Origin: Ciceribacter sp. L1K22
GTDB taxonomy: Bacteria > Pseudomonadota > Alphaproteobacteria > Rhizobiales > Rhizobiaceae
Direction of reading: 5' to 3'
Length of the DNA: 64,000 nt
Assembly: GCF_017599385.1 (NCBI RefSeq)
Contig: NZ_JAGFPK010000001.1
Coordinates: 2,874,636-2,938,635 of the forward strand
Part shown: positions 4,062-42,196 of the stretch, one piece after another
How positions within the stretch are numbered: position 1 is the first letter of the stretch
How the letters are laid out: every line of letters starts with the position of its first letter
Made by a program: the position numbers and the translations under genes
The notes under the pieces: model-generated
What the model was told of the DNA's origin: nothing
The model's input: only the letters and a program-made list of their open reading frames with translations
Databases searched by the model: none

Positions 4062-5442
4062 ATCAAGAAGCTCGCTGTTCTCGCGCCTCATGCGGCGTGT
4101 GGCGATCGTGCTCGGACTGGGCGCGGCCTGCCTGATAACCGCTGCATGGTTCTACGCCCGCGCCGCCGCCGACGAGGCCTATGACCGGCTACTGCTCGGC
4201 GCGGCATTCCAGATGTCGGAAAATCTGGTTCTGTCGGACGGCGAACTCGATTTCAACTTGCCGCCCTCCGCGTTCGAACTGCTCGGGCTTGCGCAGCGCG
4301 ACCGGATTTTCTACCGCATCATCACGCCGACCGGCGAGACGCTGACGGGTTACGGCGACCTTTCACCCGACCTCGATCTTGCCGATAGCCGCGCAGTTCC
4401 GCTCTTCGGTCGCATCACCTATCGCGGCGTCGAGGTACGGACCGTCACCACCGCGCGGGCCATTACCTACGGCGAGGGCACCGGCTGGGCGTATGTGATC
4501 GTGGCCCAGACCACCGATGCGCGCCGCTCGCTCGCCGCGGAACTGACGACCCGCGCCACCCTGCTCGTCCTCGTCATGAGCCTGCTGGCACTCGTCGGCA
4601 CGGCACTTGCCGTGCGTCATTCGCTGCGCCCGGTCGACGATCTCGGCGAGGCGCTGCGTCAGCGCGACCCGCAGGACCTAACGCCGCTCGCGCTCGCGGT
4701 GCCGCGCGAGCTTTCCCCCTTCGTCACCTCGATCAACCATTTCATCACCCGGCTCGACGAGCGCGTGAAACTCCTGCAGCGCTACGTCGCCGACAGCGCG
4801 CACCAGATCCGCACGCCGCTGACGGCGCTGACCTCGCAGGTCAGCCTCATCAACGAGACAAAGCTGGCCCCGGAGGACCGGCGGCACTTGGAACGCGTGC
4901 GCGACCGCACCGCCGAACTCGCCCGCTTCACCAACCAGTTGCTGAACCATGCGATGGTGATCCACAGGATCGATTCGACCCATCTCGTACCGGTGTCGCT
5001 GAACGAGGTGGCGCGCCTCGCCTTCCGCGCTGCCGTGCCGATCACCGTCGATCCGGATATCGTCGTTTCCTTCGAGGCGGCCGAACCGGACGCCTCGGTG
5101 CTGGGCGACTCGCTGAGCCTTAGGGAGGCTATCGTCAACATCATCGACAACGCGCTGCGCCACGGCGCAAAAGCCCGGCTCGACGTGCGCGTGACCCGCA
5201 CCGAGACCCACGGTCTCGTCGAGGTGCGCGACGACGGCCCCGGCATCCCCGCCGCCGAGTGGAGCAACGTGACACGGCGCTTCTATTCCAGTCGCTCCGA
5301 CAAGGGCGCATCCGGCCTCGGCTTCGCCATCGCAGCGGAAGTTGCGGCCACGCTCAAAGGACGGATCGGCTTTCGCGAGAAGACCGACGACCAGCTCTTC
5401 TGCGTCTACATCGAGCTTCCCTTGCTGGAGGAGAGCCCATGA
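4054..5442 (+). CDS. tctE: TctE-like sensor histidine kinase
   Basis: 462 residues from ATG at 4054 (MTESRSSLFSRLMRRVAIV). Two membrane helices, about 17-37 and 165-187, enclose a periplasmic region of the TctE/2CSK N-terminal type; then a HAMP-like linker, the dimerisation/phospho-acceptor box with SAHQIRTPLTAL, and an ATPase domain with NIIDNALRHG (N box), DDGPGIP (G1) and GASGLGFAIA (G2). It senses carboxylate availability, perhaps indirectly through the neighbouring binding protein, and phosphorylates TctD. Its stop codon overlaps the start of the next gene (ATGA), so the three genes tctD-tctE-SBP are almost certainly one operon. Confidence 0.93.
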   Translation: MTESRSSLFSRLMRRVAIVLGLGAACLITAAWFYARAAADEAYDRLLLGAAFQMSENLVLSDGELDFNLPPSAFELLGLAQRDRIFYRIITPTGETLTGYGDLSPDLDLADSRAVPLFGRITYRGVEVRTVTTARAITYGEGTGWAYVIVAQTTDARRSLAAELTTRATLLVLVMSLLALVGTALAVRHSLRPVDDLGEALRQRDPQDLTPLALAVPRELSPFVTSINHFITRLDERVKLLQRYVADSAHQIRTPLTALTSQVSLINETKLAPEDRRHLERVRDRTAELARFTNQLLNHAMVIHRIDSTHLVPVSLNEVARLAFRAAVPITVDPDIVVSFEAAEPDASVLGDSLSLREAIVNIIDNALRHGAKARLDVRVTRTETHGLVEVRDDGPGIPAAEWSNVTRRFYSSRSDKGASGLGFAIAAEVAATLKGRIGFREKTDDQLFCVYIELPLLEESP

Positions 5443-6512
5443 GAACAACGCCGATCTATCTTGCCTTGACGCTCTGCCTCCTTCCCTCCCTCACCCAAGC
5501 GCTTGAAGGCGATCGGGAGATATTCTCGGCAAAGGGCGAGGAGACAGCCCGCCTCGTGGTACATGCAGCAACCGATCTGGAGGCCATGCGCCCGCTGATC
5601 GAGGATTTTCAGACGAAGGAACCGGGTGTGACCGTGGAATTCGTCGACTACGTCACCAACGACCTGTTCCGCGAGGCGCAGGACGCCTGCGCCGGCAGGG
5701 CGCGCGGCGGCGACATCCTGCTGTCGTCCTCCGTCGACCAGCTGGTGCGGCTCGCGAACGACGGCTGCGCCCAGCCGCACACCTCGCGCGAGACGCAGAC
5801 CACGTCGAGCTGGGCGAACTGGCGGGACGAAATCTTCGGCTTCACCTTCGAGCCGGTCGTCTTCGTCTACGACCGTCGATCCGTGCCGCCGGAAGATGTG
5901 CCCCAGAGCCACGAGGCGCTCGCCGACCTTCTGCGGCGCAAGCCCGAGGTCTATAGCGGCCGCATCGGCACCTATGACATCGAGGCCTCCGGCGTCGGCT
6001 ATCTCCTCGCCTTCAACGATTCGCGGCAGGCGCCAACCGCCTATGGCCGGCTGATCGAAAGCCTGAGCCGAATCGATACGGTAATTCGCTGCTGCAACAA
6101 CGAGGTGCTGGGCGAACTCGCCGCCGGCCGCGTTCGCCTCGCCTACAACGTGCTCGGCTCCTATGCCTACGGCGCGGCGCTCAAGAACCCCGATTTCGGC
6201 ATCGTTCTGCCGGAGGATTACACCTTGGTGCTGTCGCGCGGCGCGATGATCCCCTCGACGGCTCCTAACCCTCTGCTCGGCAAGATCTTCTTGGATTACC
6301 TGCTCTCGCCGCGGGGCCGCCAGCTGGCGCGCGAAAAATCCTTCTTCTTTGCCGAGGGGCTGGCGCTGCCCAAAGGCGTCGAAGGCCCCCCGTCCCTGAT
6401 GGAGTCAGGCATCGGCCGCCCCATCCGCATCGGCCCCGCGCTGTTGGCGGCGCAAGACGAGATCCAGCGGAGGCAGTTTATCGAGGACTGGAAGGGATTG
6501 ATTGGGCGGTAA
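5439..6512 (+). CDS. Periplasmic solute-binding protein co-transcribed with TctDE
   Basis: 357 residues from ATG at 5439, overlapping the tctE stop codon. N-terminal signal peptide (MRTTPIYLALTLCLLPSLTQA). The mature part has the two-lobed ABC/Fe3+-type binding protein pattern: LVVHAATDLEAMRPLIEDF followed by PGVTVEFVDY, a GDILLSSSVDQLVRLANDG segment, and near the C-terminus LGKIFLDYLLSPRGRQLA. It is not a Bug/TctC protein, and no ABC permease or ATPase gene is beside it. In similar loci such proteins sit with TctE-type kinases and are thought to act as ligand sensors, giving a three-component signalling system; that role is inference here. Two adjacent Cys (about 207-208, RCCNNE) may form a disulfide or bind a ligand. 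Confidence 0.8.
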   Translation: MRTTPIYLALTLCLLPSLTQALEGDREIFSAKGEETARLVVHAATDLEAMRPLIEDFQTKEPGVTVEFVDYVTNDLFREAQDACAGRARGGDILLSSSVDQLVRLANDGCAQPHTSRETQTTSSWANWRDEIFGFTFEPVVFVYDRRSVPPEDVPQSHEALADLLRRKPEVYSGRIGTYDIEASGVGYLLAFNDSRQAPTAYGRLIESLSRIDTVIRCCNNEVLGELAAGRVRLAYNVLGSYAYGAALKNPDFGIVLPEDYTLVLSRGAMIPSTAPNPLLGKIFLDYLLSPRGRQLAREKSFFFAEGLALPKGVEGPPSLMESGIGRPIRIGPALLAAQDEIQRRQFIEDWKGLIGR

Positions 6513-7697: not shown

Positions 7698-8153
7698 ATG
7701 AGTTTTGAACCTCGCCATAGATTTTTCGACACTCTTCTTTCGGAATGGATCGAACGGGTACCGAATGAGCTTGACGTCGATGCCGTCGGCCTGTGGCAGA
7801 TCGTGGGTTCTGGGCGAGACGGCTTCTCGTTGCAGGGAAAGGAGTTAGCGGACTTCGTAAACGGCTGTGTTCTCGCTTTGCTACGCAATGGCGCGGTCCC
7901 TGTGCGACCCAGCGCACAACCGAATGAGTTTTGGCGAAGGGACATTCGCTACGAAGGCTGCGATGAAGAGATTGCCCTCTCAATCGTCAACGAGTGGACC
8001 ATGTCGGGCAGCGACCCGGATCATGACGGACTGTGGTTTTTTCGCTTCCATTCCGCAGGAATGCAATACCGACGTCAATTGACAATTAAACAAGATCAGA
8101 AAACAGAAATGGTGGGCCCGGAGGGACTCGAACCCCCAACCAAGCGGTTATGA
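7698..8153 (+). CDS. Hypothetical protein whose 3' end runs antisense into tRNA-Ile2
   Basis: 151 residues as read; the body (about 1-135, beginning MSFEPRHRFFDTLLSEWIER, with VDAVGLWQIVGSGRDGF and a C-terminal DPDHDGLWFFRF) looks like a genuine conserved hypothetical found in proteobacterial accessory regions. The last 14 residues, MVGPEGLEPPTKRL, come from the antisense of the tRNA gene (8110-8153) and are a well-known annotation artefact. No stop codon occurs before the tRNA, so the native C-terminus may be lost, or the gene may truly end here. It is divergent from the 7197-7631 gene with a 66-bp gap. Function unknown. Confidence 0.55.
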   Translation: MSFEPRHRFFDTLLSEWIERVPNELDVDAVGLWQIVGSGRDGFSLQGKELADFVNGCVLALLRNGAVPVRPSAQPNEFWRRDIRYEGCDEEIALSIVNEWTMSGSDPDHDGLWFFRFHSAGMQYRRQLTIKQDQKTEMVGPEGLEPPTKRL

Positions 8154-39481: not shown

Positions 39482-40942
39482 TCATCCAGCGGCCGATAAG
39501 GCCGCCATACGCCCGGCGATCGCCCGGAAATCCTGCCGGAAACGTTCCATCTCCTGCATACGGCGATCCTCATCCGGCAAACGCAAAAGGTAGGAGGGAT
39601 GGACGGTGACGAACAGCCGCCGCCCATCCTCCAGCATGCGCTCGCCCCGCATGTCGCCCAGTGGCCCGGTCTCGCCGGTCAGGGCGGCGACAGCGGTCGC
39701 GCCCATAGCGACGACCATGCGCGGTTTGACGAGGTCGATTTCCTTGGTTAGCCACCACCGGCATTTCTGCACCTCGCCCGCATTCGGACGCTGGTGGATG
39801 CGGCGTTTGCCGCGCGGTTCGTACTTGAAGTGCTTGACGGCATTGGTGAGATAGAGCGCACGGCGGTCGATTCCGGTCTCCTCCAGCACGCCATCGAGCA
39901 ACCGGCCGGCCGGCCCGACGAACGGCCGACCCGCAAGGTCCTCCTCGTCGCCCGGCTGCTCCCCGACCAGCATGACGGAAGCTCGCTCTGGCCCCTCGCC
40001 GAAGACGGTCTGGGTCGCCTTGCAATGAAGCGGGCACAAGGTGCAGGTATTCGCCTCCTGACGCACCGCTTCCAACGTCTCCCCCGCGACGACGGGCGCG
40101 GGTTCCTCCTCCCGTCGCAGTCGGTGATGAAATGCCGGCGGCATCGTCGGCGCCTGGGCCGCCATTTCGATGACGCGCGCCTCCGCCGAGGCGATGAGGC
40201 CGGGAATGAGATCGGCCTCCGGCAGGTTCTTCCAGTATTTCTTGGGCATCTCGGTCGTCATCATTTTGACCTTTAGCCGCGCCGGATTGAAGATCGAGGC
40301 ATAATAGGTGCGCCAGAGATCGTCGGTGTCATCCGACAGATCGGGTTTCTCCGCACCCTCGTCTGTCGCCCGCAACGTCGCCCCGTCCCACGATGCCGAC
40401 CCTTTGGGAGATGCGATCAGCCAGTCCATGTCGGTGAACCGGCGCTGGAAGAACGGTGCGGTGCGGGCGACGATGAAATGGTCCGGCTCGAACCATGCCA
40501 CGAACCGTCGCCGCCCCGCCTCTCCCGGCGCAAGCGGCATCTCCTTGAACCGCACAAACGCCGTCATCTTATGGCAATCCCGTCGCACCGATTTTGCCAG
40601 CCGATGCGCCGCCACCACGTCCACGTCCGTGCGCATGCCGAGCAGAGCACGGTCACCGGCCAATCGCCACAGCAGACGATAGAGCAGCGAAAAGCGTCCA
40701 GGATCGGAATGACAGATGACCGCTTCGGCCAGGTGAACGAAGGGCGCCGGAACCGTGGGCGGCCTCGCACCGGGTCGCGGTGAGGGCAAGACGCTGCCCG
40801 CGCTTGCGAACAGCCCGCCGCCCGCTCTGTCCGCACACAGCCAGGAGACCTTGTCTGGTTCGATCTCCCCCATCAGCAGAGCTCTGGCGGCGTCACGCCA
40901 TTCCGCAAAATCACCCCTGCCCCTGAGCACGACCTCCTGCAT
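39482..40942 (-). CDS. udgX: DUF4130-UdgX fusion: uracil-DNA glycosylase/binding protein
   Basis: 486 residues. N-terminal half (about 1-250) is a DUF4130 (TIGR03915-type) domain. C-terminal half (about 290-486) is a family-4-like uracil-DNA glycosylase of the UdgX group: Fe-S cysteines CTLCPLHC (C300, C303, with C394 later), uracil-pocket GEQPGDEEDLAGRPFVGPAG (327-346), the UdgX-specific KRRIH (379-383) whose His forms a covalent bond to the abasic sugar, and HPSYLLR (448-454). UdgX binds uracil in DNA irreversibly instead of releasing an abasic site. Starts one base inside the stop of the upstream radical SAM gene (TGATG), so the pair is coupled and, through the LexA box upstream, probably SOS-induced. 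Confidence 0.93.
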   Translation of the reverse strand: MQEVVLRGRGDFAEWRDAARALLMGEIEPDKVSWLCADRAGGGLFASAGSVLPSPRPGARPPTVPAPFVHLAEAVICHSDPGRFSLLYRLLWRLAGDRALLGMRTDVDVVAAHRLAKSVRRDCHKMTAFVRFKEMPLAPGEAGRRRFVAWFEPDHFIVARTAPFFQRRFTDMDWLIASPKGSASWDGATLRATDEGAEKPDLSDDTDDLWRTYYASIFNPARLKVKMMTTEMPKKYWKNLPEADLIPGLIASAEARVIEMAAQAPTMPPAFHHRLRREEEPAPVVAGETLEAVRQEANTCTLCPLHCKATQTVFGEGPERASVMLVGEQPGDEEDLAGRPFVGPAGRLLDGVLEETGIDRRALYLTNAVKHFKYEPRGKRRIHQRPNAGEVQKCRWWLTKEIDLVKPRMVVAMGATAVAALTGETGPLGDMRGERMLEDGRRLFVTVHPSYLLRLPDEDRRMQEMERFRQDFRAIAGRMAALSAAG

Positions 40943-42177
40943 CAGAACAACGCAAGCTGCTCGGGCGGCGGCGCGAAAAGCCCGCGAAGATCGCCCCGAT
41001 CGGCAAGCCGCATCGGCGTCCAGCTCTCCGCGACAATGAACGGGCGCACCTTCTTCAGCGACACCCCGAGACGTTTCAGGTCATCAAGCCGCAACCGCCG
41101 GAAGCGGCGCGCCGCCAGAATGCCTGCCACCGTCTTCGTGCCGAAGCCAGGCACCCGCAGCAGCATCTCCTTCTCCGCCCGGTTGACGTCGACCGGAAAG
41201 CGGTCCCGGTGCGAGAGCGCCCAGGACAGTTTCGGATCGAGGTCGAGATCAAGCATGCCATCAGGTCGCGCGGACGTGATCTCGCCGATGTCGAAGCCGT
41301 AAAACCGATAGAGCCAGTCCGCCTGGTAGAGCCTGTGCTCCCGGATCAGCGGCGGCTTGACCAATGGCAGCTTGCTCGAGGCATCCGGGATCGGACTGAA
41401 GGCCGAATAGTAGACGCGTTTCAGATGGTAGCTGCCGTAGAGCCGCGCACTCGTGCCGAGAATGGTGGCATCGCTTGCCCCATCGGCACCGACGATCATC
41501 TGTGTACTCTGCCCCGCAGGCGCGAACACGCGCCGGCGTTTGGTCTTCAGCGTCGGCTCCGCCATGTCCTCGATCTTCAGCCGCAACGCGCCCATCGACC
41601 TGCGAATACCGGCCGGCTGTTTTTGCGGCGCGTAATCGGTAATTCCCTTGTCTGTCGGCAGTTCGATGTTGATCGACAGCCGGTCGGCATAAAGCCCCGC
41701 CTCCTCGATCAGCGCCTGCGATGCCTCAGGAATGGTCTTCAGGTGGATGTAACCGCGAAAATTATGGGTCGTCCGAAGCTCCCGCGCCACCCGCACCATC
41801 TCCTCCATCGTATGATCGGAAGAGCGGATGATGCCCGATGATAAAAACAACCCCTCGATATAGTTGCGTCGATAGAATTCGAGCGTCAGCCAGATGACCT
41901 CGTCAGGTGTGAAACGCGCCCGCGCAACATTGCTGGAGGAGCGGTTGATGCAATAGGCGCAGTCATAAATGCAGAAATTGGTGAGCAGGATCTTCAGCAA
42001 CGAAATGCATCGTCCATCCGGCGCGTAGGCATGGCAGATGCCGGAGCCCTCCGTCGAACCGAGCCCTCCGGAGGCGGAGGAATTGCGCTTCACCGTGCCG
42101 CTGGATGCACACGATGCATCATATTTCGCCGCATCCGAAAGGATCGCGAGCCGTTCTTTCAGCGTCTTTACAACCAT
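40942..42177 (-). CDS. Radical SAM protein linked to UdgX (TIGR03916-like)
   Basis: 411 residues. Radical SAM cluster C69-x3-C73-x2-C76 (CIYDCAYC), preceded by three further Cys (C23, C48, C57) that may hold an extra Fe-S site. SAM-domain strands include YIEGLFLSSGIIRSSDHTME and GYIHLKTIPEASQALIEE, and a C-terminal helix-hairpin-helix (about 333-360, LLRVPGFGTKTVAGILAARR) typical of DNA-binding repair proteins. Annotated elsewhere as a putative DNA modification/repair radical SAM protein; the reaction is not known. First gene of the operon with the DUF4130-UdgX gene; a LexA box lies 5 bp before the start codon. Confidence 0.93.
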   Translation of the reverse strand: MVVKTLKERLAILSDAAKYDASCASSGTVKRNSSASGGLGSTEGSGICHAYAPDGRCISLLKILLTNFCIYDCAYCINRSSSNVARARFTPDEVIWLTLEFYRRNYIEGLFLSSGIIRSSDHTMEEMVRVARELRTTHNFRGYIHLKTIPEASQALIEEAGLYADRLSINIELPTDKGITDYAPQKQPAGIRRSMGALRLKIEDMAEPTLKTKRRRVFAPAGQSTQMIVGADGASDATILGTSARLYGSYHLKRVYYSAFSPIPDASSKLPLVKPPLIREHRLYQADWLYRFYGFDIGEITSARPDGMLDLDLDPKLSWALSHRDRFPVDVNRAEKEMLLRVPGFGTKTVAGILAARRFRRLRLDDLKRLGVSLKKVRPFIVAESWTPMRLADRGDLRGLFAPPPEQLALF

Positions 42178-42181
42178 GTAT

Positions 42182-42196
42182 GTTCACTATATGTTC
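42182..42196. promoter_or_regulatory. LexA (SOS) box, GTTC-N7-GTTC
   Basis: The plus strand reads GTTC ACTATAT GTTC, a perfect match to the direct-repeat LexA box of Rhizobiales/Alphaproteobacteria (GTTCN7GTTC or its complement). It sits 5-19 bp before the ATG (42177) of the radical SAM-UdgX operon, where bound LexA would block initiation. It is also in the 230-bp divergent region with the MFS gene. Confidence 0.8.

Follow-up and report, generated by a model that had tools for sequence, protein, structure and literature searches.

A radical SAM and DUF4130-UdgX operon under predicted LexA control in Ciceribacter sp. L1K22 and its relatives

The operon and its two proteins

We analysed a stretch of 64,000 nt from Ciceribacter sp. 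L1K22 (contig NZ_JAGFPK010000001.1, positions 2,874,636 to 2,938,635), called the window hereafter, which contains a two-gene operon preceded by a putative LexA operator. All features described here lie on the minus strand and are given in window positions. The first gene (40942..42177, 411 amino acids) encodes a radical S-adenosylmethionine (SAM) protein that matches TIGR03916 and Pfam models and has a C-terminal helix-hairpin-helix (HhH)-like region. The second gene (39482..40942, 486 amino acids) encodes a fusion of two domains, i.e. DUF4130/TIGR03915 (40208..40942, fusion residues 1-245) and UdgX (39482..40207). The overlap of the two genes, which had already been noted in a sequence-only reading of this DNA, consists of a single base common to the stop codon of the radical SAM gene and the start codon of the fusion gene (TGATG), so that translation of DUF4130-UdgX is likely coupled to that of the radical SAM gene. 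The operator, GAACATATAGTGAAC on the operon strand (42182..42196; GTTC-N7-GTTC on the plus strand), is an exact match to the box. The same reading had placed this box correctly, except that its distance to the ATG of the radical SAM gene is 4 bp (ATAC) and not 5 bp.

The operon was compared with relatives from several samples. Among 199 genomes of the same order, 38 from 17 families, with the own genome counted, contain the radical SAM family over the cut-off. The corresponding number for the phylum of the window is 84 of 398 genomes, and all 29 that lie outside the class, from 8 families and presumably of beta- and gammaproteobacteria, were examined. From named genomes, for which the scan gave at least 590 relatives, the best 80 were taken, and two loci came from viral sequence scans, to which further viral scans added none. 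The 156 loci include the own copy (L006), which is also counted among the 38 loci of the order. Residue counts leave this copy out and refer to 155 loci for the radical SAM protein and 121 for the fusions.

The radical SAM protein belongs to the family TIGR03916 (571.7 bits, compared with an NCBIfam cut-off of 343.5), and the Pfam models Radical_SAM (PF04055) in this protein and DUF4130 and UDG in the fusion all exceed their scores. The radical SAM protein has exactly six Cys, i.e. the CxxxCxxC motif at residues 69/73/76, which is kept in 155/155 loci, and three N-terminal residues at 23/48/57, which are kept in 154/155 loci and probably hold a second Fe-S cluster. Both Cys sets and an HhH end had been noted in the sequence-only reading; the HHH_3 match at residues 329-360 has a score of 19.6 and is below the gathering score of 27. 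The CxxxCxxC motif and the barrel of an AlphaFold2 model (mean pLDDT, a per-residue confidence score, of 84) assign the protein to the radical SAM superfamily, and SAM cleavage with a [4Fe-4S] cluster is predicted. The folding alignments contained 69 (A2) and 63 (A3) of 82 sequences each, window included. The matches of the model to HydE (Z 17.3, 213 residues, root-mean-square deviation 2.4), lipoyl synthase (17.1), biotin synthase (16.7), and others are nearly tied, so that the fold list indicates a radical SAM barrel, but no function. The single homologue without the three N-terminal Cys, from Gemmatirosa (L047), has the HhH end and no DUF4130 in its locus; it offers an outgroup for the role of the extra Cys.

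The fusion protein matches TIGR03915 with 210.7 bits (cut-off 112.25) and TIGR03914 with 334.1 bits (cut-off 189.95). Its UdgX domain contains the motifs GEQPG (327-331), KRRIH (379-383), and HPSYLLR (448-454). The Gln of motif A (Gln329) and the crosslinking His of the KRRIH R-loop (His383) are each kept in 119/121 fusions, and structures of Mycobacterium smegmatis UdgX were matched both by profile and by fold (46-49% identity in the fold matches), in line with the original naming of UdgX from KRRIH. In fifteen fused UdgX domains (L007, L009, L010, L017, L020, L022, L026, L028, L030-L033, L035, L036, L038), three Cys that are kept in the other domains (C300, C303, and C394 of the window protein; presumably Fe-S ligands) are replaced by Ser, a gap, and Tyr, respectively, with the crosslinking His and its loop kept. 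A cluster-free UdgX clade is a possible explanation for these fifteen domains.

The motif definitions of UdgX are those of PMC10359453. This paper describes a bond between His and C1′ of the DNA, reports a covalent uracil-DNA complex for M. smegmatis UdgX, and also states UdgX activity for Bradyrhizobium diazoefficiens. The physiological role is described there as largely unknown, and RecA-dependent pathways or proteases are named as possible ways to resolve the adducts. The distribution of UdgX in bacteria is scattered (PMC10776899).

Conservation and change of the predicted LexA operator

The exact GTTC-N7-GTTC pattern was found once in the window, compared with 2.59 matches expected by shuffling. 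Therefore, the single box is not significant by itself, and its significance comes from conservation. The own genome has 153 matches to the box pattern, compared with 74 to a reversed control. Boxes of the same type are located 45 bases upstream of the family match of lexA and 170 bases upstream of that of recA. In addition, the unit that encodes an IMS-domain protein and DnaE2 (imu-dnaE2, with a first gene called imuA by eye from the sequence) has the box GTTCTCTATATGTTC, which is one base off the box of the operon.

For the relatives, the region from -130 to +20 of the family match was searched for GAAC-N7-GAAC on either strand. An exact box is present upstream in 36 of the 38 loci of the order, and the other two have one mismatch. 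The values for the named genomes are 76/80 exact and 2/80 with one mismatch; the last two, beyond one mismatch, are Xanthomonas dyei and a metagenome-assembled genome of Acidovorax. Pieces from elsewhere in the same loci, which served as the main control, contain an exact box in 3/958 and 13/3998 cases (about 0.3%). Shuffled upstream regions contain it in about 0.5% (an approximate control based on non-overlapping dinucleotides). The operon thus has what characterizes the alphaproteobacterial LexA regulon, i.e. GTTC-N7-GTTC at the promoter and its retention in relatives, and the SOS control that had been proposed from the box gains the conservation within the Rhizobiales on which it was to be checked.

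Outside the class, the operator is a different one. An exact CTGT-N8-ACAG, the LexA box as known from E. coli, is present upstream in 19 of the 29 loci, and a one-mismatch CTGT-N8-CCAG in five further loci, all from one genus (g199). Control pieces of these loci contain 3/633 exact and 14/633 one-mismatch sites. A plasmid copy of the operon in Cupriavidus has the upstream site CTGTATATCCATACAG. Five of the 29 loci have neither box type (L133, L134, and L135-L137, the latter three from one genus). The presence of one operon under two unlike operators suggests that selection acts on SOS control. Taken together, the sequence comparisons strongly support that LexA exerts SOS control over the operon.

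In L136 and L137, in which the known LexA boxes are absent, the palindrome GTCTCATCCAATGAGAC is located upstream of the radical SAM gene, and L135 is one base off. Xanthomonas dyei (L113), likewise without a known LexA box, has the similar palindrome AGTCTCATAGGCTGAGACT. A search of three genomes for the exact form gave a single copy in each of two genomes, located only at the radical SAM operon. Perhaps the palindrome is the site of another regulator.

A -10-like TATAGT (42186..42191) can be read inside the box spacer, so that LexA would cover the -10 element, and TTGACT is situated 15 bases upstream of it. This pair is not listed by a promoter scan with spacers of 16-18, because its 15-base spacer is out of range. 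The only scan match near the box is on the opposite strand, and the number of matches is at the chance level. Promoter features were counted in the 99 of 117 loci whose box has the GAAC orientation. TATAAT is matched in at least 4/6 positions at the spacer position in 66/99 relatives (a count without a control), and a -35-like hexamer in at least 5/6 positions in 20/99, compared with 1.4% at random places. The first in-frame start codon is located two bases past the box in 33/99 relatives. The operon transcript is probably leaderless, as far as the sequence indicates.

A core pair, an optional module, and mutasome neighbours

A DUF4130 gene neighbours the radical SAM gene in 152/156 loci (151 by a custom profile, L050 by Pfam). 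The four loci without it are the divergent Gemmatirosa locus, L104 and L132, whose sequences stop with the radical SAM gene or shortly behind it, and L131. UdgX is fused to DUF4130 in 122/156 loci. In contrast, the frame stops after DUF4130 and the locus is devoid of UdgX in 28 clear cases; two of 30 DUF4130-only loci were dropped, L125 because the frame leaves the contig end and L002 because of a partial DUF4130 with an early stop. The UdgX-less pairs include those of Acinetobacter, Bacillota, Fusobacteriota, plasmid copies of Bacteroidota, and some alphaproteobacteria. A LexA box is present in 21 of the 28 loci (14 exact, 7 with one mismatch; the count of boxes by architecture comprised 153 loci and left out the own copy, the divergent L047, and the truncated L132). 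TIGR03914 is over the cut-off in 0/18 UdgX-less whole genomes, and 9/18 have no match at E 0.001. The nearest match reaches 154 bits (G535). As the fused but diverged domain of G561 (118 bits) likewise stays below the cut-off, a diverged UdgX might still be encoded elsewhere. By these distributions, the conserved core consists of the radical SAM protein and DUF4130, and UdgX is added to the C-terminal side of DUF4130 as an optional module.

A profile search for a solved relative of DUF4130 gave one hit with an E value of 0.91, which was not accepted as real. In a fold search with the whole fusion as query, the 50 matches listed were only of the UDG type, apart from a DNA polymerase that aligned to the same part. 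In L131, an IMG/VR contig with an exact LexA box, a hemerythrin gene (5270-5776) follows the radical SAM gene in place of DUF4130. The gut phage contig L050 carries radical SAM and DUF4130 genes; by eye, two sites with one mismatch to GAAC-N4-GTTC flank an upstream TATAAT at about 7900-8000.

A recurrent third gene was sought in 80 loci and, besides the pair and reverse-strand frames, only ImuB-like and DnaE2-like genes occur in more than four. An ImuB-like gene is present within the flanks (up to 3.5 kb) in 11/80 loci, a value that may be too low because the crude gene finder often took reverse-strand frames for genes, and 9 of these 11 also have a DnaE2-like gene. The pair is located between imuB and dnaE2 in seven loci, those of Erythrobacter and other Sphingomonadales. 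In Henriciella and two Bradyrhizobium loci, imuB diverges from the pair. Three DnaE2 stretches that are cut by the locus ends were scanned and have their best match to NF004225, “error-prone DNA polymerase” (366-828 bits; whole-protein cut-off 939). Four of five scanned ImuB-like proteins have weak matches to DNA polymerase IV models, and the fifth has none. An ImuA candidate reaches 23.5 bits, compared with a cut-off of 150.

Within the order, 36/38 genomes with the pair contain dnaE2 at a threshold of E 1e-280 or better, compared with 112/161 genomes without the pair (Fisher p 5e-4, kinship ignored). In at least 5/38 genomes dnaE2 lies within 2.6 kb of the pair, and in three of these loci, which were read, LexA boxes are situated between the pair and dnaE2 units. 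The radical SAM family appears to be induced alongside error-prone polymerases. In L167, L168, and L169, the pair is oriented divergently to the imu-dnaE2 cassette, and the intergenic stretch that they share contains at least one LexA box (imuB was judged from frames, dnaE2 stems from the genome search).

In the window itself, the operon is flanked by genes for an ArsR-type regulator, an AHSA1 protein, and an EamA transporter on one side, and for a major facilitator superfamily exporter and GreA on the other side. Repair genes are absent among the scanned flanking genes, as judged by NCBIfam and Pfam matches.

Possible reactions and relation to known systems

We assign a probability of about 0.5 to the view that the LexA-repressed SOS operon serves DNA-base chemistry, performed by the radical SAM protein and DUF4130 beside the DnaE2 mutasome, with UdgX as an optional addition. 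Upon DNA damage, LexA would leave the operator, and both proteins would be made in a translationally coupled manner. They would act jointly on DNA beside ImuB-DnaE2, and DUF4130 and the HhH region would place the radical SAM enzyme on the DNA. The CxxxCxxC cluster, probably together with a Cys23/48/57 cluster, would perform radical chemistry on an abnormal base, i.e. its reversal or conversion. UdgX would excise uracil, stay covalently on the abasic site, and shield it until RecA-dependent processing.

Several observations weigh against this view. SOS induction as well as the enzyme reaction are predicted here from sequence. L044, L045, L046, L049, and L050 (other phyla or Acinetobacter) have no recognised box, like L133-L137 and L113, and the five CTGT-N8-CCAG sites are not independent, because they stem from a single genus. 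The link to the mutasome is not obligatory, because 2/38 pair-containing genomes lack dnaE2 at the strict threshold, and dnaE2 is also frequent where the pair is absent. DUF4130 has no convincing solved relative by sequence, and its DNA binding is a guess. The second cluster is predicted from Cys conservation, and the pLDDT of the model is <50 over residues 22-34, 36-47, and 52-55.

A narrower version is only tentatively proposed, namely that a two-cluster, mutasome-associated radical SAM enzyme and DUF4130 constitute a new radical base repair or conversion in the SOS response, in which UdgX caps the uracil or abasic product. If true, SOS would be linked to a second radical chemistry on DNA bases, next to that of spore photoproduct lyase (SplB). 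As the sequence-only reading had suggested, the radical SAM enzyme may act on a damaged base by repairing or modifying it.

It is less probable that the radical SAM enzyme, together with DUF4130, introduces a DNA or nucleotide modification in the SOS response rather than removing damage, and that UdgX then marks the base that is modified or deaminated or takes it out. Lipoyl synthase and biotin synthase are sulfur-inserting enzymes, and their place among the fold neighbours together with the extra Cys set would allow insertion chemistry. The NCBIfam name, “putative DNA modification/repair”, is compatible with a modification, and PMC3765255 considers that DUF4130-linked enzymes might modify thymines. 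However, the fold match is that of a generic radical SAM barrel with many tied structures, HydE and lipoyl synthase among them, and transient SOS expression would suit repair better.

Reversal of ultraviolet (UV) dimers in the manner of spore photoproduct lyase would make a uracil module useful yet optional, as UdgX could catch uracil from the fast deamination of C in dimers, and SOS control would suit UV damage. We regard this as unlikely. A sequence tie to spore photoproduct lyase was rejected, as the search of NCBIfam, which presumably contains a SplB model, gave only TIGR03916 and no SplB family match at E 1e-3. Moreover, Subdoligranulum, Fusobacterium, Phocaeicola, and a faecal phage contig (L045, L046, L049, L050) carry the pair as well. 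These represent anaerobes or habitats without light, so that UV is not the sole source of the substrate.

The sequence-only reading had also suggested that the radical SAM enzyme releases UdgX from its covalent DNA adduct. Such a removal would make sense of the partner being fused to UdgX in most loci and of the His-C1′ bond (PMC10359453). As a general task it is very unlikely, because the SOS-controlled pair exists without UdgX, i.e. in the 28 clear loci with their 21 boxes, and none of the 18 UdgX-less genomes has TIGR03914 over a cut-off that misses G561 as well. Release could be a derived role in fused forms. Finally, a chance box in an operon outside LexA control, for which the 2.59 matches expected in the window could be quoted, was rejected as most improbable in view of the conservation (36/38 and 76/80 exact, compared with 3/958 and 13/3998 in the controls), the operator change, and the same box at the own lexA, recA, and imu-dnaE2.

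If the radical SAM enzyme of the core pair does act on DNA bases, our view of the targets of SOS mutagenesis would change. The reaction is narrowed down to one that radical SAM and DUF4130 would perform without UdgX, probably with two clusters, and on a substrate that would also arise in anaerobes.

COG4277 is, we assume, the radical SAM/HhH protein analysed here. LexA control of a two-gene COG1573-COG4277 operon was predicted for Bacteroidetes by comparative genomics in 2021 (PMC8565304); this paper cites Verrucomicrobia and Alphaproteobacteria (Caulobacter) for the same LexA control and suggests that the operon handles misincorporation by SOS polymerases. DUF4130 had been described in 2013 as a predicted mutagenesis-related enzyme that is tied to SplB-like radical SAM proteins and uracil-DNA glycosylases (UDGs) in an SOS network (PMC3765255). 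Furthermore, four UDG-family genes are described for Caulobacter (PMC1839093), and a radical SAM protein, not further identified, is part of LexA networks of Gram-positives and Balneolaeota (PMC7739468). The locus is thus not the undescribed system for which it had initially been taken, as NCBIfam names the pair, and PMC3765255 and PMC8565304 place the operon under SOS/LexA. The pair and its LexA control are already described; added here are the core with an optional UdgX, the six Cys, and the imuB/dnaE2 neighbours. In the open-licence literature, we found no reported reaction for the radical SAM family, which may be reported elsewhere, and no paper with both UdgX and radical SAM.

The COG1573-COG4277 operon resembles that of the window in being a two-gene unit with a uracil-DNA-glycosylase family protein and a predicted LexA target. 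In contrast, the window operon is alphaproteobacterial and has UdgX fused to DUF4130, which is not named in PMC8565304. The NCBIfam trio TIGR03916/TIGR03915/TIGR03914 is matched over all cut-offs without any difference, and the model names of TIGR03916 and TIGR03915 attach no tested reaction. M. smegmatis UdgX (PDB 6ail, 6ajo, 6iod) shares motif A, the R-loop His, and motif B with the window domain, in addition to the level of identity given above, but only the latter is fused behind DUF4130 and encoded next to a radical SAM gene. SplB is the other SOS-linked radical SAM protein, whereas the window protein has three extra conserved Cys, a DUF4130 partner, and no match to any NCBIfam family besides TIGR03916 at E 1e-3. 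The ImuA-ImuB-DnaE2 mutasome shares its LexA box type with the operon in the Ciceribacter genome and is a gene neighbour in several lineages, but it is not homologous to the pair and is a partner by context only.

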